Below, piece after piece: positions 4,864 through 8,063 of a DNA stretch of 17,013 nt. Source of the stretch: Candidatus Sumerlaeota bacterium (GTDB taxonomy: Bacteria; CG03; SLGR01); NCBI GenBank assembly GCA_007136585.1, contig SLGR01000199.1, positions 1 to 17,013 on the forward strand, given 5' to 3'. A program made the position numbers and the translations under genes. The notes under the pieces are model-generated. The model made no database searches and was not told the origin of the DNA. It saw only the letters and a program-made list of their open reading frames with translations. How positions within the stretch are numbered: position 1 is the first letter of the stretch; each line of letters opens with the position of its first letter.

Positions 4864-5727
4864 ATGAAAGAGATAAAAATTTTTACGGTTATTGCTGCAT
4901 TTCTTCTTGCAGGTTCAGGGTGCGCTGAACGCGAACCCGCGGTTGCCCATGTCGGGCGCCGCAGGATAACCGTTAGTGATTTTAAACAGCGACTTGAAGA
5001 GGTCCCGTCTTATTACAGGGGTTTTATCGCGACTGAGGGAGGTAAACGCCAGTACCTCTCGGGTATGATAAAGGAGGAGATACTTCTTCATAAGGCCCTG
5101 GATGAGAACCTGCACAGAAGGCCGGATATAGCAAGGCGCCTTGAGGAAGTTAGGCGGGAGGTTCTTCTGGCCGCCGCGATAAACCACCTCCATAATGAAG
5201 AGATAAAGGTCTCAGATCAGGAGATAAGGGATTATTTTGAGAAGCACAGGGAGGAGTTTGCGGACCCGGTTCAGCTAAAGGTAAGCCATATACTTTTAAG
5301 TAACGAGAACCGCGCCCGTGAGGTGCTTCAGAAGCTTAGAAGGGGAGCTTCTTTTGAGAAACTTGCCCGGGAGAACTCCATAGATACCTTTACCGCAGTA
5401 AACGGAGGGGATATGGGGTTTATCGAGAGAGGGGATATGCCCCCGGAGTTTGAGGAACCGGTATTCAGTCTTCAAAGCGTTGGGGAAATAAGCGATGTCA
5501 TAAAGACACCTTACGGATATCATATAGTTAAACTTACCGGAAGGAAGCGGGGCCGGGCTGAATCATTTGAAGATGCCAGGGAGAATATAAAAAGACGGCT
5601 TGAACAGCAGAAGATAAACGAACTTCTGGACAGATACCACAGGGAACTGAACGTAAGGATAGATAACAGCGTATTAAGAGAGGTTGAGATAGAGGACGGC
5701 AGATCTGAGGAGTCACCCGGAGATTAA
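4864..5727 (+). CDS. PPIC-type peptidyl-prolyl isomerase, probable lipoprotein
   Basis: Exported folding helper of the parvulin type (PrsA/SurA-like). The N-terminus has the charged-hydrophobic pattern of a lipoprotein signal, with LLAGSGC putting Cys20 at the anchor site. The lipobox is imperfect because Gly sits at -3. Residues about 30-130 form a helical SurA_N-like region. The parvulin domain spans about 136-228, with VSHILLSNENRA, a GGDMGFIERGDMPPEFE loop and TPYGYHIVKLTGR. At 287 residues it is a normal single-domain member. ATG at 4864 follows AAAGGG. The SurA-like gene lies 40 bp downstream, so the two probably act on the same envelope clients. Confidence 0.87.
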   Translation: MKEIKIFTVIAAFLLAGSGCAEREPAVAHVGRRRITVSDFKQRLEEVPSYYRGFIATEGGKRQYLSGMIKEEILLHKALDENLHRRPDIARRLEEVRREVLLAAAINHLHNEEIKVSDQEIRDYFEKHREEFADPVQLKVSHILLSNENRAREVLQKLRRGASFEKLARENSIDTFTAVNGGDMGFIERGDMPPEFEEPVFSLQSVGEISDVIKTPYGYHIVKLTGRKRGRAESFEDARENIKRRLEQQKINELLDRYHRELNVRIDNSVLREVEIEDGRSEESPGD

Positions 5728-5767
5728 GAAACTCCGGAATTTATTTCAGGAGGAAATTCTTATAGCT

Positions 5768-6763
5768 ATGAATATAAAAGTAAAAAAAAGAAACCTTTCA
5801 GGGGCTCTCTACGCAGCCCTGCTTATAGGGTTGCTTTCATTAACCCCTTCCGAGGGAAGTGCGGAGGAGGTTGTAGACAGGGTTGTGGCCAGGGTAAATG
5901 ACGAGGTAATACTTCTCTCGGAGTTCAATCAGCGGGCCGCACCCGTTTTAGGGGAGTTTGAACAGATGTTTGAAGGCCCCGACAAGGAGGAGCGTTCCAT
6001 AGAGCTTCAAATGGAGATGCTTGACCAGATGATAGATGAAAGGCTTCTCCTTCAGAAGGCCCGGGAGAAAGATATCAGTGTCTCTTCTTCCGAGATAGAC
6101 CAGGGGGTTGATGAGATAAGGAACAGGTTTTCAAGCGAGATGGAGTTTCAGAACGAGATAACCCGCCAGGGGTTTACCGAACAGGAGTTCCGCGAGAATA
6201 TCAGGGACCAGATGATGGTCATAAAACTCATCAACCAGGAGGTAAGGGACAAGATTCCCCCTCCGACTGAGGAGGAGGCACGTGAGTACTACGAGGCCAA
6301 TAGAGAGGATATGGTTACCCCTGAGAGGGTGGGAGCCAGGCATATCCTCATAAGGATAACAGACGACAGGCCTCAGGAGGAGGCGCAGGAGAAGGCCCGG
6401 GAGGTATATGAGAAAGTCGCAGAGGATCCGTCTATGTTCAGCGATTACGCTGAAGAGTACTCCGAAGGTCCTTCCGCCCAGGCCGGTGGCGATCTTGGTT
6501 ATTTTGCCAGAGGCGAGATGGTCAGCGAGTTTGAGGATGTGGCATTCGGCCTTGACGTAGGGGATATCTCGGAGCCGTTTATGACCAGGTTCGGGTACCA
6601 TATCGTAAGGGTTACCGGGCGCGAAGGAAGCGAAAGACGGACGTACTCCGAGGTACGGGACAGGCTCAAGAATATGCTTTACCAGATGCGTATGGAAGAG
6701 GAGTATGAAAAATTTCTAAGGGACCTCCGTGATGAGGCCAGGATAACAAGGAGCCTTTTCTGA
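5768..6763 (+). CDS. surA: SurA-like periplasmic chaperone with one PPIC domain
   Basis: Periplasmic chaperone and prolyl isomerase, expected to help outer-membrane proteins fold. The 331 residues begin with a basic, then hydrophobic signal peptide (about 1-32, likely cut after EGSA). A SurA_N domain follows, opening with VARVNDEVILLSEF (40-53) and continuing with helices to about 180. One parvulin domain spans about 187-285 (GARHILIRI, AGGDLGYFARGEM, TRFGYHIVRVTGR). E. coli SurA has two parvulin domains, so this is the shorter form. AGGAGG precedes the ATG. The symbol rests on domain order and on the pdxA-rsmA neighbours downstream. Its TGA stop overlaps the probable CTG start of the next gene. 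Confidence 0.85.
   Translation: MNIKVKKRNLSGALYAALLIGLLSLTPSEGSAEEVVDRVVARVNDEVILLSEFNQRAAPVLGEFEQMFEGPDKEERSIELQMEMLDQMIDERLLLQKAREKDISVSSSEIDQGVDEIRNRFSSEMEFQNEITRQGFTEQEFRENIRDQMMVIKLINQEVRDKIPPPTEEEAREYYEANREDMVTPERVGARHILIRITDDRPQEEAQEKAREVYEKVAEDPSMFSDYAEEYSEGPSAQAGGDLGYFARGEMVSEFEDVAFGLDVGDISEPFMTRFGYHIVRVTGREGSERRTYSEVRDRLKNMLYQMRMEEEYEKFLRDLRDEARITRSLF
6748..6762 (+). promoter_or_regulatory. ribosome binding site and CTG start of the UDPGP-family gene
   Basis: AAGGAG at 6748-6753 stands 6 bp before CTG at 6760-6762, which overlaps the surA stop as CTGA. The downstream reading frame is open from 6736, after an in-frame TGA at 6733-6735. It contains no ATG, GTG or TTG until 6988. The spacing and overlap make CTG the best start; ATT at 6766 or 6775 would be alternatives. 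Confidence 0.6.
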
Positions 6764-7833
6764 ACATTCCTGATATTCTCAGTAAATATAATTACCCCCG
6801 CGATGAGATAGAGAGACTCATAGAGCTCTACCGGCAGGGGAAGCTTACCCTAAAGGATAACATAATAGACGGCAGGGTAGAGGTCCCGGATGAGAGAAGT
6901 TTTGAGTCTCTTCCGCCTGAAGGGTCTGCTGAGCTCAGAGAGCTGAAAGAGACAGGCAGAGAGGCCATAGAGCGCGGCCGGCTGGGTATGGTCATATTAA
7001 ACGGGGGGATGGCGACCCGGTTCGGGGGGGCGGTAAAGGGAGCCGTTGAGGTCTTTGACGGTAAGAGTTTCCTTGAGCTTAAGATAAGAGTTGCTGACCG
7101 GGTTTCCGAAAAGATAAGGTTTTTTATAATGAACTCCTTTGCTACGGAAGAAAAGACAGAGGAGCATTTCCGTGATAAAGGGTATTTCGGGGTAGAGGAC
7201 CGGGTAGAGATGTTCAACCAGTTCATAGCCCCGAGGATTGATAAAAACGGCGGATATTACACTCCCGGTGATGATCCGATGAAAGCTTTCTACGGGCCCG
7301 GGCACGGAGATTTTCCCTACGCGTTCAGGGAAAGCGGACTGCTTGAAAGGTTTGAAGAATCAGGGGGCAGGTACATTTTCTTTTCAAACGTGGATAATCT
7401 GGGCGCCGTTCCGCTTCCGGAGATACTGGGGTATCATATAAAAAGCGGCGGTGAACTTACTTCCGAGGTGGCTGAAAAATCTCCCGGAGACGAGGGCGGG
7501 GCTCCCGCCCTGGTAAACGGTCGTATTCAACTGGTGGAGGGGTTCTGTTTTCCCCCCGGGTTTGACTCTTCCGCCATACCTGTTTTTAACTGTAATTCCT
7601 ACTGGGTTACCGCGGAATCTCTCAGGAAGGATTTCCGCCTGCCCTGGTATGTTGTTGAGAAAAAAACCGGGGGGGATACCGTAATACAGTTTGAGCATCT
7701 TTCCGGGGACCTTAGCGTCTTTCTGGAGACTTCTTTCCTGAAGGTTCCCCGCAACGAGAGGTTCTTCCCGGTGAAGAGGCCTGAGGACCTGGACTCCGGC
7801 AGGGAAGAACTCAGAAAAATTACCGGGTTTTAG
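6760..7833 (+). CDS. UTP--sugar-1-phosphate uridylyltransferase, UDPGP family
   Basis: Probable UDP-glucose (or UDP-N-acetylhexosamine) pyrophosphorylase joining UTP and a sugar-1-phosphate. NGGMATRFGG (81-90) is the nucleotide-binding loop of the family, followed by a Lys (VKG). FFSNVDNLGAVPLPEILGYH and the later FNCNSYWVT stretch are also family-like. About 357 residues are read if translation starts at CTG 6760. The first conventional codon, ATG 6988, would begin the protein four residues before the binding loop and drop 76 residues. Those residues read as natural helical protein (PRDEIERLIELYRQGKLTL), so a non-ATG start is preferred. The gene follows surA with a 4-bp overlap. The phosphohexomutase at 9805 could supply its substrate. 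Sugar specificity is unknown. Confidence 0.85.
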   Translation: MNIPDILSKYNYPRDEIERLIELYRQGKLTLKDNIIDGRVEVPDERSFESLPPEGSAELRELKETGREAIERGRLGMVILNGGMATRFGGAVKGAVEVFDGKSFLELKIRVADRVSEKIRFFIMNSFATEEKTEEHFRDKGYFGVEDRVEMFNQFIAPRIDKNGGYYTPGDDPMKAFYGPGHGDFPYAFRESGLLERFEESGGRYIFFSNVDNLGAVPLPEILGYHIKSGGELTSEVAEKSPGDEGGAPALVNGRIQLVEGFCFPPGFDSSAIPVFNCNSYWVTAESLRKDFRLPWYVVEKKTGGDTVIQFEHLSGDLSVFLETSFLKVPRNERFFPVKRPEDLDSGREELRKITGF

Positions 7834-7838
7834 TATAG

Positions 7839-7883
7839 CCTCACTTATTTTCGTACCCTTACGCGTTATTCTTTTTGGTGAGG
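7839..7883 (+). repeat. weak inverted repeat after the UDPGP-family gene
   Basis: CCTCAC at 7839-7844 pairs with GTGAGG at 7878-7883, and a smaller CGTA/TACG pair lies inside the loop. The T-run (CTTTTT at 7871-7876) comes before the right arm rather than after it, so this does not match an intrinsic terminator. It is only a candidate for 3'-end structure. Confidence 0.25.
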
Positions 7884-7907
7884 GATAGGATGAAACGCCC
7901 ATGATTA

Positions 7908-7913
7908 TATACT
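7908..7913 (+). promoter_or_regulatory. possible -10 box for pdxA-rsmA
   Basis: TATACT at 7908-7913 is a good -10 match within the gap before pdxA, but no convincing -35 lies 16-18 bp upstream. If used, transcription would begin near 7920 and the leader would contain the whole structured block at 7935-8034. Confidence 0.3.
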
Positions 7914-7934
7914 CAAAAAAAGGTATGAGAATAT

Positions 7935-8034
7935 CCTCGGAGACGCTGCCGGAATCCGTTTCCTCATTCTCGCCTACGGCTCCGAGGGTTCCGTCCGAAG
8001 GACGGAGCAAACCCGGAAACCCGTACCACCGGGG
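7935..8034 (+). promoter_or_regulatory. structured 5' leader of pdxA, candidate cis-regulatory RNA
   Basis: Three consecutive GC-rich pairings fill this block. CCTCGGAG (7935-7942) pairs with CTCCGAGG (7980-7987). TCCGTCC (7990-7996) pairs with GGACGGA (8000-8006) across a GAA loop, nested inside GGGTT/AACCC (7986-7990 with 8010-8014). CCCGG (8012-8016) pairs with CCGGG (8029-8033). Some arms share bases, so alternative folds are possible. The block ends 29 bp before the pdxA start, which has no good ribosome binding site. I compared it with common riboswitch classes from memory (cobalamin, TPP, SAM-I, c-di-GMP-I, c-di-AMP, guanidine-I) and found no convincing match. The pairings are seen; the regulatory role is inference. 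Confidence 0.4.
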
Positions 8035-8063
8035 ACTGTAAATATATTGATGGGTATTTTTAA

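Follow-up and report, generated by a model that had tools for sequence, protein, structure and literature searches.

CUG is seldom used as a start codon, accounting for 20 ORFs (0.024%) in 69 genomes (PMC9845219), and a switch from AUG to CUG was recorded for 2 of 61,358 ancestral AUG starts (PMC5622118). The 30S and 70S complexes that form on CUG are less stable, and changes to C1, to the G-C pairs of the anticodon stem, or to the anticodon of the initiator tRNA cause E. coli to discriminate less strongly against CUG (PMC11497404). The commonest geometry of coupled genes in prokaryotes is a -4 overlap (PMC10666635). Here, we analyzed a window of 17,013 nucleotides, a single 17 kb contig of a draft MAG (1.88 Mb in 257 contigs, 88% complete), in which a UDPGP-family gene follows a surA-like gene and appears to combine a CTG start with a -4 overlap of the upstream stop codon (Table 1).

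Table 1 Features at the surA/UDPGP junction (positions are those of the window)
Feature	Position	Strand	Remarks
surA-like peptidyl-prolyl isomerase gene	5768..6763	+	ATG start; TGA stop 6761-6763
Shine-Dalgarno-like AAGGAG	6748..6753	+	6 nt before CTG 6760, 12 nt before ATT 6766
UDPGP-family nucleotidyltransferase gene	6760..7833	+	357 codons if the start is CTG 6760
CTG, most likely start codon	6760..6762	+	spacing; CTGA overlap with the surA stop, -4 geometry
ATT, rival start codon	6766..6768	+	opposite the ATG of the nearest relative, L002, in the nucleotide alignment
ATG, first conventional start codon	6988..6990	+	inside the first beta-strand; not a likely start

The UDPGP frame is preceded by the in-frame stops TGA TGA at 6730-6735, is open from 6736 to 7830, and closes with TAG at 7831-7833. 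The original prediction described a frame open from 6736 with no ATG, GTG, or TTG before ATG 6988, a CTG at 6760 six bases downstream of an AAGGAG, and an overlap of that CTG with the surA TGA as CTGA, all of which we could confirm in the sequence. From CTG 6760 up to ATG 6988, the frame spans 76 codons, and it also holds two near-cognate ATT codons, at 6766 and 6775, that the prediction had not listed. A run of 75 coding codons free of ATG, GTG, and TTG is not extraordinary in itself, with about 5% expected by codon frequency. In the sampled stretches of this genome, each strand has one AAGGAG per roughly 2,000 bases, so the chance of finding it 4 to 10 bases before one given codon is roughly 0.4%. 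The predicted RNA structure at the surA/UDPGP junction is not unusual (z -0.71), and Rfam gave no match anywhere in the window.

The prediction further held that the 76 upstream codons read as natural protein and that members of this family normally extend N-terminally beyond the nucleotide-binding loop. This agrees with the homologues, the coding signal, the order of the genes, and a structure model. We identified five relatives, all Elusimicrobiota genes from five other genomes (four of them Elusimicrobia MAGs), that are 54-67% identical to the protein over its full length; wider phylum searches returned the same five and no conspecific genome. Upon alignment, all five carry the N-terminal 76 residues before the loop, and their ATGs lie at the surA junction, not at the position of ATG 6988. 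Identity to the relatives is 39-52% in the extension vs 58-71% in the rest of the protein. Within the extension, 16 positions are invariant across the five relatives (L7, Y10, Y12, I17, L20, I21, G27, N34, P43, F48, L51, P52, G66, I70, G73, and L75, counting CTG as 1), and nucleotide differences concentrate at codon position 3, for instance 24/28/52 with L002. In frame, the extension reaches a coding score of 0.171 bits per codon, much like the rest of the UDPGP gene (0.181 bits per codon), vs -0.09 to -0.51 for the five remaining frames; the 99th percentile of false frames is 0.018, and the median of true genes is 0.22. In every relative, the UDPGP gene comes directly after surA, whose orthologue is in the same position, and ahead of pdxA, and ksgA comes next in all relatives whose stretch reaches far enough. 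The AlphaFold2 model is modest overall (mean pLDDT 63), yet it contains a confident helix at residues 57-71 (pLDDT 88-95) that leads into the first strand at 75-81, inside which lies residue 77, the residue encoded by ATG 6988. Taken together, the N-terminal 76 or so codons clearly belong to the protein.

Two other features of the locus deserve mention. Between the UDPGP gene and pdxA (7834-8063) lie 230 nt here vs about 14-16 nt in L002, with no Rfam match and no repeat found within this gap. Upstream, the surA-like gene, whose product has Pfam SurA_N and Rotamase domains, is part of a tandem pair of SurA/PrsA-type PPIase genes at 4864-6763 that are roughly 26-30% alike, a tandem that is conserved in the relatives.

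The product is probably a short PF01704 uridylyltransferase of about 357 residues that resembles UDP-glucose pyrophosphorylase. The PF01704 match has 169.9 bits (E=1e-49; gathering cut-off 22) and extends only to profile position 341 of 413. Its best sequence matches are eukaryotic UDP-glucose pyrophosphorylases, the motifs NGGMATRFGG, GHGD, and SNVDNLGA resemble those of UDP-glucose enzymes, and a Foldseek search with the structure model, despite its mean pLDDT of only 63, gave E values of 3.6e-18 to UAP and 1.9e-17 to human UGP. The best PDB alignment reaches no further than residue 409 of 514, and the protein ends 12 residues later. Ending so soon after the catalytic domain, it is without the C-terminal beta-helix domain of eukaryotic UGPases, which is also absent in all five relatives; this domain is not needed for membership in Pfam PF01704. 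In a sample of the phylum, PF01704 was present in 6/8 genomes of this order and in 0/8 other genomes, and in those six, the short UDPGP gene always lies between surA and pdxA. No GalU-type match was seen in the genome, which is 88% complete, among proteins other than NTP_transf_3, and the sole PF00483 match (contig C40, L097) resembles a mannose-1-phosphate guanylyltransferase. The organism may therefore rely mainly on the UDPGP gene for its UTP-sugar-phosphate enzyme.

As for where translation begins, we favor CTG 6760, served by the AAGGAG and aided by coupling to surA, with a probability of about 0.52. This codon has the best-placed ribosome-binding site and overlap geometry: its spacing of 6 to the AAGGAG lies within the distances at which GGAG most often precedes starts in this genome, and it lies at -4 from the surA stop, as does the ATG of relative L003, in which the equivalent junction reads ATGA. 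The ATGs of the five relatives lie at +1, -4, +7, +10, and +1 nt from the surA stop and 9-12 codons before a shared KYNYP-type motif. CTG 6760 is 11 codons from the YN of this motif, a distance equal to that in relative L015. The original prediction of a CTG start therefore holds in part, as the extension is real and CTG is the best single candidate, but two other explanations also fit.

The first of these, which we consider unlikely but the strongest competitor, is that translation starts at ATT 6766, two bases past the surA stop, and that this codon descended from an ancestral ATG. Both the nucleotide and the protein alignment place ATT 6766 opposite the ATG of L002, and the nucleotide pairing also counts against CTG 6760. 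The same AAGGAG is conserved in place in L002, 11 nt before its ATG, and ATT is among the known rare starts (infC; table 11). However, the AAGGAG spacing of 12 is longer than usual, and AUU is a weak start, at about 0.3% of the best codon in E. coli according to a value quoted in PMC10666635. CTG 6760 is better placed with respect to the Shine-Dalgarno sequence as well as to the overlap, and we favor it over ATT 6766 as the probable start.

Slightly less probable again is an ordinary start in the true sequence that is masked by an assembly base error at 6760 or 6768 or by another small error at the junction. A single substitution at either position would explain everything, the assembly is a draft, and the start is ATG in 5/5 relatives. 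On the other hand, the surA and UDPGP frames are intact on both sides, which gives no hint of an indel. To this explanation also belongs our survey of start codons in sampled stretches of the genome (174 kb), in which the UDPGP gene was the only one of 88 coding-like open frames without a usual start near its beginning; over 87 such frames, the first usual codons were 53 ATG, 20 GTG, and 14 TTG. This implies that true rare starts are scarce enough for base errors to compete. Likewise, the published rarity of CUG starts (0.024%; 2/61,358) suggests that a true CTG start is a priori hardly more likely than a base error in a draft assembly, for which the probability is our own estimate.

The same survey bears on whether the organism uses CTG starts in general. 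The genome contains 62 AAGGAG-N4-9-CTGA sites, and among the 34 distinct ones that we read, only the UDPGP site leads into a long frame that has no usual start close by. We also looked at the initiator tRNA gene (L053), which is canonical in retaining C1, three GGG/CCC anticodon-stem pairs, and the CAT anticodon. This lack of a relaxing change counts against CTG 6760, as do the rarity of CUG starts and the lower stability of ribosomal complexes on CUG. With a single case among the 88 frames sampled and a canonical-looking initiator tRNA, we saw no sign of a relaxed initiator tRNA or of genome-wide use of CTG and rejected both.

A protein that starts at ATG 6988, the first conventional start and the choice of gene callers restricted to ATG, GTG, and TTG, would leave the upstream codons untranslated; we reject this highly improbable reading because those codons carry coding signal and residues conserved in five relatives with upstream ATGs, the gene order is shared, and the start would fall inside predicted strand 1 of the nucleotide-binding fold. 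Just as improbable is a -1 slip at T TTC TGA that fuses SurA to the enzyme, since, although tRNA-Phe can pair with either TTC or TTT and a -1 shift from surA at that point leads into the enzyme frame, the site is no full slippery heptamer, stops and ATGs separate both genes in the relatives, and SurA is an exported chaperone whereas the enzyme is expected in the cytosol.

If CTG 6760 is the start, the AAGGAG six bases upstream would drive initiation there, and because the surA TGA overlaps the start as CTGA, a ribosome terminating at surA could re-initiate with fMet. This geometry would suggest translational coupling of surA and the UDPGP gene. We put forward more tentatively the fuller proposal that this is a functional natural CTG start in an uncultured bacterium, where the weakness of the codon is offset by termination-reinitiation at the surA stop, making enzyme output dependent on surA translation. 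A CTG start here is plausible as a rare start of a known kind and, if true, would add a rare case to an already known phenomenon. The correction to the N-terminal annotation is real: it restores the N-terminus of a conserved enzyme that callers limited to ATG, GTG, and TTG would truncate to a probably misfolded protein. The junction also offers a compact natural test of whether overlap with a stop codon can rescue a CUG start despite its weakness.

Compared with the UDP-glucose and UDP-GlcNAc pyrophosphorylases of PF01704, the enzyme is alike in the region before the NGGxxTRxG loop, the GHGD and SNVDNLGA motifs, and its predicted fold. It differs in being only about 357 residues long, with the C-terminal part short or missing in its clade. 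By analogy with bacterial genes that start at CUG or AUU, namely infC with AUU and scattered CUG genes, the locus would use a near-cognate start read by fMet-tRNA with a Shine-Dalgarno sequence upstream. In infC, the start serves autoregulation, of which there is no sign here, and unlike in those genes, the candidate start overlaps an upstream stop as CTGA. The junction resembles -4 nt ATGA coupled pairs, of which L003 has a true example, in that stop and start share four bases downstream of a Shine-Dalgarno sequence, and it differs from them in its first base, which is C instead of A or G.
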